A program made the position numbers and the translations under genes. Below, piece after piece: positions 48,401 through 57,400 of a stretch of DNA of 64,000 nucleotides (positions are counted from its first letter, which is position 1; each line of letters opens with the position of its first letter). Origin of the DNA: Branchiostoma floridae (lineage: Eukaryota; Chordata; Leptocardii; Amphioxiformes; Branchiostomatidae). Location: NCBI RefSeq assembly GCF_000003815.2, contig NC_049987.1, positions 24,250,053 through 24,314,052 of the forward strand. The letters are read 5' to 3'. The notes beneath the pieces are model-generated. The model searched no databases and had not been told where the DNA came from. It was given only the letters and a program-made list of their open reading frames with translations.

Positions 48401-51400
48401 TGATAACATGTTAACAAACAGTAATAAATCTTACAATCAAAAAGTTATAATTCACACTACATCAAAGATCACACAGCTTGATAGGACTGTAATCTCAAAC
48501 TCTCATTAAACGTAATCTATATAGTATTACAAACTTCTCTGCTTAGCACTCAGCATTTGGGAAAGAGTATGGAAGTTAAACACACATCACTCCCAGCGGA
48601 CTAGCCCCCTGCTGTAGGGGCTTGCACAAATGTGTGTGGCCCAAGGGCTACAGAAATGGAGATGGGCACCACCCCTAAGCATCTACATAGATGTACACTT
48701 TAATGTACAAACCTTTCGTTTTCCACAAATGCTAAAACCATCTTATTGTTTCTGGACAACAGACATATAGTAGTGCTTCCAATAATTATACACCATCAAT
48801 CCACAAATTATATTTACTGACACAGAAGTATACAAAGTATACATGTATGATAAAAGAGAACAAACTCAAACTCCCCACCTGTCATAGCAGATAACGGCTT
48901 CCTGGTACTCCTCTAGTCTGTACAGAGCTTCCGCCTTGTACATCAATGGCAGAACACTTTTCAATCGAACACTCTTCGTTTCCGTATTTTGCTCAACACT
49001 CTGCATCCCTTCCTGTTCGCTCGGTTCTCTGGCTCTCTTCTTACTCATCTTTTTACCAGCAGTTCTCTCTTCAGAGTCCTCATCTGAATCAAACAGATCG
49101 TCACCGCTGTCGCAACGATTGCTTGGAGGAGTAACGGGGTCTTCAACGAGTTTCAAAGAATCATGGGAAGTGTGCACTGCATCATGGGATAGGCCGGAGG
49201 AATCGTGGGATGGATTGAGCGAGTACGTGTCAGTCCGCCATTGGTTGTTGGGAGGGATTTTTGTCAGCAGTTTGTCGCAGACGGCTATGGCGTCCTCGTA
49301 TCTCTGAGCCTTGAGCAGGGAGAGCGAAGCTTCACAGTACACAGTTTGGAGGTCCAGTGGGGGAAAGGGGGTTCCTGGTGTTAATGGCTGATGAAGAAAA
49401 AACATCAGATGTGAAAAATTTCTTTATCTTCTACATTCTCAAGCTCTTTTTATGTTGAACAACAAACCTGTATCAGCGGCCACCTTTGCATAGCGACCAC
49501 CTTGCCATTGGGGTCCCTTAGATTTTTCCTATTGACCTAAGCATTAAGAAATACTATATAGCAGCCACCTGTCCAACGTGGCCACGGCTACACAATTTCC
49601 GGTCCCGTAGATACAGAAACACTGCCCTTTGTGACCATACAGCGGTCGTATGTCATCCTGCGCCGGGTTTCAAATCGTAGTTTGCGAGGCCGAGAATTTG
49701 GAGTTCTTGACAGGGTCATTTTGGCTATAGCAGAGGGTATGCCTGCCTTGAATATTAGAGTGCAAATCTTTTTTTTACCAACATTCCGCATGGCAATATC
49801 AATTTTCCGTAGATTTCTGCAGGGTCGGTTGAATTCTGAGACCTTTCGAGACAATGTTACTTGGTTAGAAAGATTAGTGGGTACTGAAAACGTGTGTGGT
49901 CAATTGATCTAACATTTTCTCTATAGTGGCCACCTGTCTATATTGGCCACATTTCTCCAGTCCCTTTAGAGGCTGCTATAGACAGGTTTGACTGTACACA
50001 GCAAATGTTGCAGGAAACAACAGCACTTGCAAATTGTATCTGAGGCAGGCTATGGTCACTAACAACTTAACGTTAACTACACACACTACATACCTGCATC
50101 CGAGGCAGGGCCACTAACAACTTAACGTTAACTACACACACTACATACCTGCATCCGAGGCAGGGCCACTAACAACTTAACGTTAACTACACACACTACA
50201 TACCTGCATCCGAGGCAGGGCCACTAACAACTTAACGTTAACTACACACACTACATACCTGCATCCGCGGCAGGGCCACTAACAACTTAACGTTAACTAC
50301 ACACACTACATACCTGCATCCGCGGCAGGGCCACTAACAACTTAACGTTAACTACACACACTACATACCTGCATCCGAGGCAGGGCCACTAACAACTTAA
50401 CGTTAACTACACACACTACATACCTGCATCCGAGGCAGGGCCACTAACAACTTAACGTTAACTACACACACTACATACCTGCATCCGAGGCAGGGCCACT
50501 AACAACTTAACGTTAACTACACACACTACATACCTGCATCCGAGGCAGGGCCACTAACAACTTAACGTTAACTACACACACTACATACCTGCATCACTGG
50601 TGTGTCCAGAGCAGCTGCCAACAAGTCCACATACCTCTGTGCAGCTGCCTCATACCTGTAGAGGTAAAGATTAAAGGTCTTTCACCATTGAATATACTGT
50701 ATTATACATAAAGACAATTCTATCTCTACCAGATAAGATTTACCCTGGGAAACCAGCTCGAGAAGCTTCGCAAATAAGAGTTACCGATCCCCTGCCTAAC
50801 CCGCGCCCTCCCGCCTCTATGCACCCGCCCCACTACCAGCTGGCCCCACTTACGCCGGTCCCCAACTATCACGTGTATAGTTTGGGGCCAGCTGGTTCGT
50901 GGGCCGGCGGGTGTTAGGCGGCGGGTGTTCCGTGCACGCGTGTTGCAGTGATCGGTAAACTTTGTGTGCCTCGTTAGGAGTCTGCGTTTTCCCAGGGTAG
51001 ATATGATTGGAGATTACTTTTCGAGTGTCATCCATCACACCAGAATGAACTGGCAGAACAATTCAATACAAGTGCATCTAACAAGAAAAAACAGTTGAAC
51101 GTGTCAAAGTCACTAACTCGTAAGGTAATACCAGGGGACCAAAATCAAACTTGACCTTTGTCTTCACAACCTCTACCCGCATACCAAATATCATCGTAAT
51201 ACATCCAGAGGATCTTGAGTTATGTTGACCACAAATATCCGGACACACAGACAGACACACAGAGAGACAAAAAACAGACACACAGACAGACACACCAAAC
51301 ACTACACCTTCATGTTTTATGGAGGTAACAACTGGCAGTGCAGCTTTCAGGTGTTGCACCAAATTTCTGCTCAGCTGTTTTTGTGGAGTCTTGTTAAGGG

Positions 51401-54400
51401 TTATGGTAACGTTATGGTTATTATCATATCAAGTGGTTATTATTATTATATAATTATATCAAGTCATTTACCAGGGTCACTGAAACCTAAAGCCATTTTT
51501 CAGGAGATATAATATAATCATACCTATCAAAAATTGATAAAGTGTCCCTAAAAACCAAACAAGTGTTGGGGCAAATATCTGGGGATTAAAACTCTGGCTT
51601 GACAACAGGGTCGTAGGTCACTGCGAGAAAGGGCAACTATGGTCAGTTATGAAATGAGAAAATGAGATCATGAATCTAAACGCATCAGTCTTCCATCATA
51701 CTATTTAGACTGAGACAAGGCCGCTATTTTGTAGCCTAAGTGTAGGTGGGTCGGTTCTCACGCAAATTAGCTTTTGGTAGTTGAAAAGCTAATTTGTGAG
51801 AGAACCGACCCACCTAGTTTTAGGCTAATTAATGCGCTAAAAACAGGTTCAACAACTTGCAGACACTTTTTAGAAGACCCAGCTTGTGTGGAGGCACCGA
51901 AGGTTTTACAAATCTGAGACAGTTTGTTAGAAGACCCAGCTTGTGTGGAGGCACCGAGGGTTTTACAGAAGACCCAGCTTGTGTGGAGGCACCGAGGGTT
52001 TTACAGAAGACCCAGCTTGTGTGGAGCACCGAGGGTTTTACAGAAGACACAGCTTGTGTGGAGCACCGAGGGTTTTACAGAAGACACAGCTTGTGTGGAG
52101 CACCGAGGGTTTTACAGATCTGAGGCAGATTTTCCTCTCAACAAAAACATGGGAGGAGTATGGAGCGACACTTTTGGTTTTGTGAAGGGGTTGGTGTATG
52201 GGCCTCACATGATGAAGCCGAAAGGTGAGCACCCCTCTGCGTTCCGTATGAACAACGGCGTGCCCGCGGTAGTACTGCTGACCCGAGACACCATCCAGTA
52301 CGCCTTCAACCCGGAGACGTACGAAAAGGATCCATACTCCTTTGGGCCGGGCGGCGTAAGCAAGGACGTGGTCAGGGGACACTGTCCGTCAATGTTTTCC
52401 AACGATGAAGACCATCGTCGGAAGAAGGCTCTCCTCATCGACGTCTACAAGCGGGGTCAGAAGACTCTTCCATCTGTTTTCTTTAGCCAAATAAAGGAGC
52501 ACCTCGAGGAGTGGTCACGACTGGAGGACGTCCCGGACTTTGAAGAGAGGGTTTTCCACATCATGTCTGAGACGCTGACTGAGGCCTTGTTCGGGAGGAA
52601 AATCGACGGAGAACTGTGCTTCACTTGGCTGAACGGACTTCTGACTGACTTCAAGACCTGGATCCCCATTCCCTCCATGTCAAGGAAACGCAGGCTGGCA
52701 ATAGAGGCCCTCCCCGCACTTCTGAAAGCCATCAAAGAAGCGCCAAAGTACCAAGAGCTTGTCCAACTTTGTCACACCCACGGTGTAGAGGTAGAGGAAG
52801 GTATCTTCACCATCCTATACGGCACTCTGTTCAATGGTTGCGCCGCCCAGTGCGCCGCCATCGTCTCGTCTGTCGCTCGCCTGCACACCCTCAGCGACAC
52901 AGAGAAAAACGACATCATCCAAACGACCCTCCAAGTCCTGGAGAAACATGGAGGCGTCTCGGAGGAAAGTCTCGGTGAAATGAAGACCCTTGAGAGCTTC
53001 ATACTGGAGGTCCTGCGGCTCCATCCACCAGTTTTCAACTTCTGGTGTCTGGCAAGAAAAGATCTTGTCATTTCGCCAGAAAAGGAAAACATCAAGGTTA
53101 GTTACTAGCTATAAATATTTATGCTTCTGAACAACTTTTTAATGTTTTCAACTTCTGGTGTCTGGCAAGAAAGGATCTCCTCATTTCGCCAGAAAAAGAA
53201 AACATCAAGTAACTAGTAACCTTAGTAACTAGCTATAAATATTCATGCTTCTGAACAACTTTTTAATGTTTTCAACTTCTGGTGTCTGGCAAGAAAGTAT
53301 CTTGTCATTTCGCCAGAAAAAGAAAACATCAACGTTAGTTACTAACTATAGATATATGCTTCTGAACAACTTTTAATGTTTGGCCTTGTAAGCAGCAGGT
53401 GAGAATAATTGGTTGCCTAAAAGTAAACTCCTATGTCATACTATATGTGTTGCTATTCTCCGTAGGTCTGCAAGGGGGAGCGAATGGTTGGATGTTGCTT
53501 CTGGGCTCAGCGTGACGAATCTGTGTTCCCGGATCCGGACCGTTTCCGGTGGAATCGCTTTCTTGATGAAGACAAGCAAGGAGGACAGAAGAAGCATCTT
53601 TTCTTCCCTCGCGGAAGGTACTAATCTCCAAGCAGATGCTAGGGTGGAAGATTGTGGCGTTTTTTGACTGCCTGGCTTCTATGACTGTGGAAAGTCGCGG
53701 TCTCTTAATAGAAGTTAGGCGGTCAGAAAAAGGCACAGTCTTCCACCCCAACATCTGCTTGGAGATTATAAAGTATTGGGATCTATTCCATATGCACTCG
53801 AAGTCTTGGAGTACTGGTATAGAGCAGGAAATGATTGGACAATTGGTCTTTTACCCATGGTGTAGTTTGGACACTTTTACCCATGGTGTAGTTTGGACAC
53901 TTTTACCCTTGGTGTAGTCTGGACACTTTTACCCATGGTGTAGTCTGGACACTTTTACCCATGGTGTAGTTTGGACACTTTTACCTATGGTGTAGTTTGG
54001 ACACTTTTACCCATGGTGTAGTTTGGACACTTTTACCCACGGTGTAATCTGGACACCGCTAAAGACTACAGCGCAAACAAGAGTTCGAAGATTTCACATC
54101 TCCTTGAAATGTTTAAAGTTTTACGTCTTGTTTCCTTGCAGTTCATTTAATAAATGCGTGTAAGGTTTTAATGTGTCCATTGATCACTTCCTATTGGTAT
54201 CTCTCTATGGTGATTAAGACTAAGGCTATGGTATATAACATTTGCAAAAACACAGACCAAAAACAACAACTCACCGTGAATCAGTACTTAAACCTTCTAT
54301 CATAAAAAATATCATTCATGTAACATTACAAACCCATATATTTGTTATGCAATCGGGATGAGTGGGGGATACAAACTTGGCCACATTTGGGATTGGGATT

Positions 54401-57400
54401 GCCGCAAAAGCGCCACCTACATCAGCTACATAGAGCAGCAAGAAGCAGAACTCCAGTCAGAAGCTCCGAGGAAGGTGTCTGAACGTAAGCAAAGTATGTA
54501 CATTCTGGTTGTGTACAAGAATCCTTCGATATCCTTTAACCTATATAATCTGTTTTCTCTCTCAGTTGGACGGAGGCCCCTGACCTCGACAGCCACCAGT
54601 GTCCCGGCCAGGACATCGGCTTCTTCATGATGAAAGCGCTCCTAGCGGTTCTCCTGGGGTACTGCAGCTGGGAGCTGACGGCCGCCCCCATGTGGTCGGA
54701 TAAGACCATCCGGGTGGGCAACCCTGACGATCCCGTGCGTCTCGCACGGTTTAACTTCCGCTCAGAACAGGCGGGGCGTGCGCTGGGGATAAGGCCCGAC
54801 AACATCGCGCCTAATGCGATATGAGTTGACGATCGACGTTTCTCTCAAACACATGTGGTACGCATATCATATGCATCTCAATGGTTTGGGGAGAAGTCAT
54901 ACAAGCGTATTTTTTGGGGGGTCATATGTCACAATAGAGATCACGATCCAGCAGAATTGTCGTAGTAGAACAGGCATGATGATTAAAAATCTGGCATTCT
55001 ACAGATAGATGAGATAGAGGGAAATATTAGTAATGTTTATTAAGGTGATAGGGTAATAAGCGGTTGACATTGGTCATTTTTTTAGCGTATCTAACCCAGA
55101 ACACACTGGATCATATGATTACAAAGATATTGTCTCAGGTAATTTTTTTTAAAATAAGTGGGATTTTATTAAGGTTAAACATTTAGTGAATATCCGGTGA
55201 AGGGATCGTGTTATGTGTGTACTACTATAAGTTAAATAGTTGCCATGAAGTTTGCTTAAGTCCTTTCTTTCATCTCATTTGTCTCAAAAAATAGTTCTTT
55301 CTTTCTTACAGTGTAACATATTATTTCATGTAACATAAATCTTTACCTTCCAACATGGTTGTTATAGGTCTGTATCATCGGTTCATGTAATCTAACTTTT
55401 GGTATTTTCAATAAAGGTGCACAAAAAAGAATTAGAATTGTTCCTCGCTTTGAATGGTTAGTTTGAAATAAGACACAATCCTATGAAAATACACTCAGGT
55501 TTCTTTTCACAGAAATTAAAAACACAACCACTTCTTTCAATATGTCCTGAAATATAACGCTATTTAACCTTTATCCGTGGGGTAACCTATATCCGTTCTT
55601 ATATCAACCTGCAATAGTGTTGAATATTAGGGTATCCGTTGTTATATCAAAATGCAATGTTTTTAAATGTTTTAATATATTGCATTTTGAAACCACCATC
55701 TGCCAACATGATATCCCTAAATACCCCATTTAAAAAAAACGGATATAGGTTACCCCGCGGATACAGGTGAACTAGTGTTACGTAGATATTTAGGTACAAC
55801 TAACATAATACCCTAATCCATGAGGTGAGGAACACCTACCGTTCTTGTTCCAGACAGTATTTAGCGAGGACATACAGGGCCTGATGCAGTGGAATACATA
55901 AGACCTATTGAATATCTATAGTACTCTAAACCAGGGCTCTAGCTAGCGTCCGTTTTTCCGTCAATTGATGGAAATTTGCTGCGTGTGACGGAAAAGTTTT
56001 TAAACCAATCCGTCAACCTTGACGGACAAAAATCCTTCGTTAAAGCTACAGGCGGCTTGGGGACGCCGTCCACGGCCGTAAAAGCCACACACTGTTTCTT
56101 TTGCTATTGTTATGATTGTTGACTTAGTGTGTCGGCGCCCCTTTGCATACAATAATCTCATTAAAAACCCGTTTTTCAAGGTCTCAGTTCCGTCTTTCTA
56201 ATTTAATTTTTGCGGTTTTGGCGACAATGGGAATTGGCTGACGGAAAAAAATGTTCGCGCTGGCTAGAGCCCTGCTCTAAACATTTACATGTATGCTACA
56301 GGTGAGAAAGACTTACCGTTCTAGTTCCAGACAGCGTTTAGCGAGGACATACAGGGCCTGGTGTAGTGGGATACAGGTGTGAGGAGATGTCAGGAGGGTG
56401 GCTGTTCCAGGTGCTGTACTGTCCAGCTGTAGCACAGGGTCTAGCACCTGGTTCTTACAGCTGTCTTTTCTGGTCTCGTCATTTTCTAAGGCCTGCAACA
56501 TTACCACATTAGTACGTAGTTTTACATAGAAACTGTACTGTCAATGAAGGAAAGACATCCAGGTAATAAGATACACAAGGTACTAGTACTAGTACAGTTA
56601 CATATGTACTCAAGCACTGTTAAGTTATAGCACCAATTAAGTCTAGCACCTGGTTCTTATAGCTGTTACCTTTTCTACTGTCCTTATTTTCTATGGCCTG
56701 TAATATCAACATTACCACAAGATCACACAAATGACACAATTACAGCACTCTCAAAAATACAATGGCCAAGAAAATGTAGTTAAGTTAGTATACAGGATGT
56801 CCTTGTGGCTCAACTGGTAGCAGCCTCACAGTTGAGCTCCCGGTTTAAGTTAGTCGGTAACCGGGAGACCCCGGTTCAAATCCAGGGTAGGGCATCTCGA
56901 TTGGGGCTGCGGTTGTGTTTCAGAAGGGACGTAAAAGTGGGGGTCCTGTGTTCAAGGAGGTGCCGTGGGTTTGTTTAAGTTGAAGGGCTGGCAACCCCTC
57001 CTGTAAAAACATACTCTCAACGTGTCTCAAGAGTTCCCAATGGGCTTAGTGAACTTTGTTGTGCGAAATTGTCTTAATATTTCGTAAAAAGAAGGAATTA
57101 TAATACTTACAGTGACTAACAAGTTGAGTGTTTCCAGCTCGACGTCCCCTAGCCCCAGTGCCAGGTACTGCAGTGAGATGTTGTACAGGGCAGAATGGTG
57201 GGAGAAGTCACACCGAAGGGCTTCCCGAAACAGCTGGATGGCTGTGTGGGGTTTTCCCTAAATAATGATGGAAGGGTTGGTGTAAAAACTACTACAGGTT
57301 TTCCTGTATAATGATATATTCCCCTAGCGGCAGTACCCAGTACTGCAGTATGATGGGAGAAATCACATCGTAGGGCTTCCCTGAACAGCTGGATCGCTGT

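Follow-up and report, generated by a model that had tools for sequence, protein, structure and literature searches.

A CYP74-clan cytochrome P450 gene inside a FANCG intron, and its relatives in the genome of the lancelet Branchiostoma floridae

A three-exon P450 gene nested in FANCG

We analysed a stretch of 64,000 bases of the Branchiostoma floridae genome (contig NC_049987.1), hereafter the window, in which a three-exon gene for a cytochrome P450 (P450) lies on the forward strand inside an intron of FANCG, a gene read from the opposite strand. Exon 1 (52149..53096, + strand) encodes residues 1-316, including a Met-Gly start, the I-helix with Asn229 and the EVLR and PPV motifs, and it corresponds to a single homologous exon in paralogous copies of the gene on contigs C1 and C16. 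Exon 2 (53466..53617, +) encodes residues 317-366 plus two bases and carries Arg347 of the ERR triad, and exon 3 (54566..54824, +), which ends with the stop codon, encodes residues 367-452 with the remainder of an extended heme loop and the Cys379 ligand. Intron 1 (53097..53465, +; GTTAGT...TAG) is in phase 0 and recurs at the same position and phase in two other branches of the family, A and C, described below; intron 2 (53618..54565, +; GTACTA...CAG) is in phase 2 and recurs likewise in the C16 copy. Joined in frame, the three exons comprise 1359 nt (452 codons and a stop), with both introns GT-AG, and the product matches Pfam p450 at E 2.1e-19. The three-exon gene for a 452-residue P450 described in the original prediction is thereby borne out, and the intron positions and phases shared among paralogues argue for both of its exon joins, which together form the HQCPG loop. 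A tblastn search of the whole window with the protein recovered its own exons and two repeats of the exon-1 end in intron 1, everything else having E of at least 3. An NCBIfam scan gave nine matches, every one under its curated cut-off, and neither a tRNA nor an Rfam family at gathering score was found in the window.

The FANCG intron enclosing the P450 gene (50656..56316, - strand) was delimited by its splice sites and by a match to human FANCG over the junction. The donor reads AACG/GTAAGT at 56317/56316 and the acceptor CTACAG/GTATGAG at 50656/50655, and the peptide across the junction corresponds without a gap to residues 353-396 of human FANCG (E 3.4e-4, the sole match up to E 10). In FANCG orientation, the exon 5' of the intron is 56317..56492 and the exon 3' of it is 50589..50655, both on the minus strand; the 5' end of the former and the 3' end of the latter were read from splice text and are provisional. 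A further FANCG exon at ~48.9-49.4 kb scores 30.3 bits with TPR_2 against a cut-off of 27, and the TPR matches of the joined upstream FANCG exons were all under the cut-off. An additional, unrecognised FANCG exon within the intron is possible, though the match to human FANCG leaves no gap for one. These splice signals and the human match uphold the antisense nesting that had been proposed for intron 56316-50656. We regard the nesting as a curiosity and ascribe no regulatory meaning or consequence to it.

Repeated sequence lies beside both genes. The end of exon 1 and its donor region are duplicated twice within intron 1, in a tandem unit of ~124 bp present in three copies (window 53031-53381), so that partial copies of the exon-1 end stand at 53144-53209 and 53268-53333; the intron of the C1 copy starts without this duplication. 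Intron 2 opens with a dispersed inverted-repeat element of ~150 bp (53618-53775), which has 49 matches over many contigs, many of them both strands of one place, and which is present at least in part in the paralogues on C1 and C8; a 26-bp tandem array follows at 53848-54056. A minisatellite with 37-bp and 57-bp units (51861-52118) lies just 5' of the P450 start codon, and similar sequence precedes the C1 and C8 copies. We considered and rejected a longer N-terminus that would run through the open reading frame lying upstream in the same frame (51918 onward), because it crosses the 37-bp minisatellite and holds no Met before 52149, and because the paralogue models start at the corresponding Met-Gly. 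On the FANCG side, a partial copy (85% over 41 nt) of the exon donor end at 56300-56340 was found at 55823-55863 in the same intron. A 55-bp minisatellite (50057-50595; 9.8 copies at 99%) abuts the FANCG exon 50589-50655, and each of its units, on the minus strand, bears donor-like text of that exon.

Placement in the CYP74 clan

When the window protein was searched against the PDB, two CYP74A sequences were the best matches (E 7.1e-17 for 2rch and 7.4e-17). Its catalytic motifs are those of this group. The I-helix reads GTLFNGCAAQ, which contains Asn229 and lacks the acid/Thr pair, and its Phe228-Asn229 aligns with the FN of CYP74A; EVLR occupies residues 287-290 and is followed by PPVFNFW from residue 293. 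The alignment with 2rch kept F228-N229, E287, R290, P293-P294-V295, R347, T369-E370, P372 and C379, the ERR triad (E287, R290, R347) and the PPV at 293-295 being invariant with respect to CYP74A. From Gly366 to Cys379 the heme loop equals that of 2rch in length and, by a hand count of aligned letters, is nine residues longer than in the CYP51 structure 6mcw. The three traits on which the clan assignment had originally been based, namely an extended heme loop before Cys379, an FN-containing I-helix without the usual Thr and CYP74-like text after ExxR, were thus all recovered.

In a tree of the C-terminal segment, 12 near-complete CYP74-like models from this genome, among them the window gene, grouped at 99/98 with the two plant CYP74A chains 2rch and 3dam. 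Among themselves, these models formed one group at 90/91, drawn open inside, and the CYP51 rows were the nearest outgroup. The outgroup consisted of two CYP51 chains and 12 P450 stretches from the same genome, chosen from 118 matches; these stretches are single exons, many of which stop before the heme Cys and one of which (L034) has a stop read as X, and by eye they are mostly CYP2-like, with other animal clans thinly sampled. A first tree whose outgroup held only the two CYP51 rows was set aside as its split was near trivial, and a PDB profile search was set aside as evidence since the profile already contained a CYP74A segment. In separate PDB searches, a branch A model matched CYP74A at 1.5e-18 to 1.2e-15, with the best P450 of any other kind at 3.3e-5, and the branch C model matched it at 5.6e-18 to 9.3e-16, with the next P450 at 2e-5.

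Taken together, these results support membership of the window protein in the CYP74 clan, and the placement outside the clan that the original prediction had named as speaking against it did not occur in the tree. The CYP74 family in the strict sense is another matter. Families are delimited by more than 40% identity (as stated in PMC10813956), and identity to 2rch over the C-terminal segment was 33% in one alignment and 26% in another, so the protein would stand outside that family. One viral-contig scan and two genome-contig scans, with alignments A2 and A3, returned no bacterial or viral relatives; bacterial CYP74 proteins are named in PMC10813956.

Three branches of the clan in one genome

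The search of the whole genome (431 contigs, 513,431,437 bases; the window lies on contig C9) gave 44 exon matches to the window protein. These were reduced to the 12 near-complete models with a custom splice-aware aligner, tried first on the window gene; partial copies at C8:3653k and C7:19790k, a fragment at C12:74k and a weak match at C9:10847k were left out of the alignment and tree. Nine models are unbroken, the copies at C8:3629k and on C16 are broken, and the first codon of C15:3102k, as modelled, is not ATG.

The models fall into three branches. Branch A comprises seven models on C15 (four), C12, C10 and C7, which are 60-97% identical to one another and 27-31% identical to the window protein, with the I-helix Asn at positions 224-228. 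Branch B contains the window gene, the C1 copy (82% identical, open over 446 codons), the C8 copy (79%; a stop and a frameshift in C8:3629k) and the C16 copy (55%; a one-base indel in exon 3), besides the fragments C8:3653k and C7:19790k. Branch C is a single gene, C1:8705k (C1:8701890-8705869, L013), 33% identical to the window protein and open over 454 codons in its model; its I-helix, TIVGHALPQ, is without the catalytic Asn. One intron, in phase 0 and placed three codons ahead of the GE motif (after residue 316 in the window protein), occurs in all three branches: in the branch A models, in the window gene and its copies on C1 and C16, and in the branch C gene. The window gene shares its other intron, in phase 2 after residue 366, with the copies on C1 and C16. 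In its place, all seven branch A models have a phase-2 intron at 194-198, and three of the seven have another at 345-346; the C10 model has one more, and branch C has an intron at 266. We infer that branch A corresponds to CYP440A, as its length and Asn position resemble those of the published CYP440A18. The CYP440 family would likewise call for more than 40% identity to CYP440A enzymes, and the figure for these seven CYP440A-like models and the window protein is 27-31%. Three CYP74-clan branches in this genome would be what is new here, with branch B apparently set apart from the CYP440A-like branch A by its introns, its identity and a Ser in the product-determining column considered below. 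No account of a branch like B was found in the literature searched, which left most subscription papers outside, and a nomenclature list may already name the gene.

The window and C1 loci show piecewise similarity between 52080 and 55473, in a region that takes in portions of the introns and of the flank downstream; on the upstream side the similarity stops inside the minisatellite. Since it covers introns and flank, the C9, C1 and C8 copies appear to have arisen by duplication at the DNA level that carried the introns along. For the window gene paired with its C1 paralogue, the nonsynonymous rate (dN) was 0.095 and the synonymous rate (dS) 0.311, giving a dN/dS of 0.307 over 446 codons and of 0.257 for exon 1 alone; two branch A pairs gave 0.341 and 0.292. 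These ratios point to constraint on the branch, and constraint on the window copy itself is likely, though not proven.

All but one of the 12 models start with Met-Gly in an N-myristoylation-like context, as judged by the loose PROSITE pattern; the twelfth has Ile-Gly at the same place, and branch C begins with MGNCCS, an acylation-like start. In the first 78 residues of the 12 models, no hydrophobic stretch like a microsomal anchor was found (best 19-residue mean 0.48-0.91). Because Met-Gly is kept across branches that are only ~30% identical, lipid anchoring is plausible, and peripheral membrane attachment through this start is a fair guess. A literature query for CYP74 and myristoylation had the latter term absent among the matches listed. 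Tentatively, branches B and C might be two further family-level branches beside CYP440A, made up of soluble P450s tethered by N-terminal acylation and with neither Phe nor Leu at the product-determining site, whose products would be undescribed oxylipins; branch C, without the catalytic Asn, would then do something else with the same scaffold.

Predicted function and known relatives

The window gene is likely to be a functional member of the CYP74 clan whose product converts fatty-acid hydroperoxides, most likely and chiefly to epoxyalcohols; the product type is predicted because of kinship with the assayed lancelet enzymes. As is known for the clan, the reaction would proceed without O2 and without a reductase. 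A polyunsaturated fatty-acid hydroperoxide produced by a lipoxygenase would have its O-O bond cleaved by the heme on Cys379 together with Asn229, and the resulting alkoxyl radical would close to an epoxyallylic radical. This radical would most probably regain the hydroxyl to yield an epoxyalcohol, as in an epoxyalcohol synthase (EAS), perhaps with some allene oxide.

Several observations weigh against this reading. According to PMC10813956, a toggle site is Phe in all allene oxide synthases (AOSs) and in two plant EASs, and Leu in all known lyases and divinyl ether synthases. Within a block of our alignment that is almost free of gaps, the toggle column is occupied by Ser64 of the window protein and by S, Y, C or T of the 11 further models. 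The printed texts of 2rch and 2rcm differ at a single place, F against L, presumably the toggle mutant. With neither Phe nor Leu in this column, the product type cannot be read off. Three CYP51 chains came close in the PDB search (2.5-2.9e-12), ahead of the third CYP74A, 3dam (3.6e-12). Exon 1 folded alone without an alignment had a mean predicted local distance difference test score of 38.9, which is unusable for fold comparison. Exons 2-3 alone had a dN/dS of 0.543 against the C1 copy, and comparison of the window gene with the broken copy on C8 gave 0.409 over 200 codons, near the value for the intact paralogue; the ratio by itself therefore cannot tell a gene in working order from one lost recently.

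An active enzyme of the same clan whose main product is allene oxide (a ketol/cyclopentenone route) or a hydroperoxide-lyase product is possible, and would be a variant of the same clan claim. In its favour, the PPV and T-E-x-P text of plant CYP74A is preserved in the window protein and altered in the branch A models, and B. belcheri CYP440A18 is described as having part AOS activity (PMC8124189); however, neither the toggle Phe of AOSs nor the Leu of lyases is present, and the assayed lancelet enzymes are described there as producing mainly epoxyalcohols. A less likely alternative is that of a pseudogene, recent or silent, in which case a copy that looks intact but is unexpressed would have been left in the FANCG intron. 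In favour of it, the other branch B copies at C8:3629k, C16, C8:3653k and C7:19790k are broken or partial, the ratio with the C8 copy is as given, pieces of the exon-1 end are duplicated within intron 1, and upstream the resemblance to the C1 copy breaks off in the minisatellite. Against it, 452 of 452 codons are open, the splice sites are consensus and the intact paralogue yields 0.307 over 446 codons. A chance resemblance to CYP74 in what would really be an ordinary P450 of the monooxygenase type, such as a CYP51-like one, is highly improbable, since the CYP51 chains close behind in the PDB search (2.5e-12) and nearest in the tree are outweighed by an I-helix without the acid/Thr pair, a heme loop nine residues longer than that of 6mcw and the clade with CYP74A. 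On the evidence of its sequence, the window gene appears to be genuine; it adds a member, probably under constraint and probably active, to an enzyme clan already known, and does not represent a system of a new kind.

Oxylipin enzymes of the CYP74 type, P450s of the plant-jasmonate kind, have a patchy distribution among animals. Lancelets, sea anemones, corals and Trichoplax are reported to have clan 74 (PMC4076195, PMC4229089, PMC8110760 and PMC8124189), and vertebrates, according to PMC4076195, lack it, with a plant-like bat gene described as an exception (PMC9320521). About 235 P450 genes are given for B. floridae (PMC4229089). The presence of the clan in an animal genome, as first claimed for this locus, therefore stands, yet it carries little weight as a surprise: lancelet members have been on record since 2008, with two of them assayed, so that finding the clan in a lancelet genome is to be expected. 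The clan is nevertheless larger in this genome than those two enzymes suggest. Nine unbroken models among 12 in three divergent branches offer natural variants of product-determining sites, and an opportunity to ask, in a chordate, what epoxyalcohols or allene oxides do.

Among the assayed relatives, described as EAS or EAS/AOS (PMC8124189, PMC10813956), CYP440A1 (BfEAS) of B. floridae, from 2008, is presented as the first EAS, in the CYP74 clan (PMC10813956), and CYP440A18 (BbEAS/AOS) of B. belcheri, from 2021, as having 5 exons, 458 aa, VMFNAV and N223 (PMC8124189). Compared through its published description, CYP440A18 resembles the window protein as a lancelet clan member of similar length with the I-helix Asn at a like position (its N223), the ERR triad, PPV and the heme-loop insertion, but it differs in VMFNAV against GTLFNGCA and in five exons against three; its apparent kin here are the branch A models, 27-31% identical to the window protein. 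Since CYP440A1 is reported as 71% identical to CYP440A18 over 76% (PMC8124189), it would fall with branch A, outside the branch of the window gene. CYP443C1 and CYP443D1 of Nematostella vectensis, known here by description (PMC8124189, PMC8110760), are likewise animal CYP74-clan enzymes, but cnidarian. Plant CYP74A, an AOS (2rch, 2rcm, 3dam), includes the best solved-structure match, 2rch, and shares the heme-loop length, FN, PPV and ERR with the window protein; unlike the latter, which has Ser64 and 26-33% identity over the C-terminal segment, it has Phe at the toggle.

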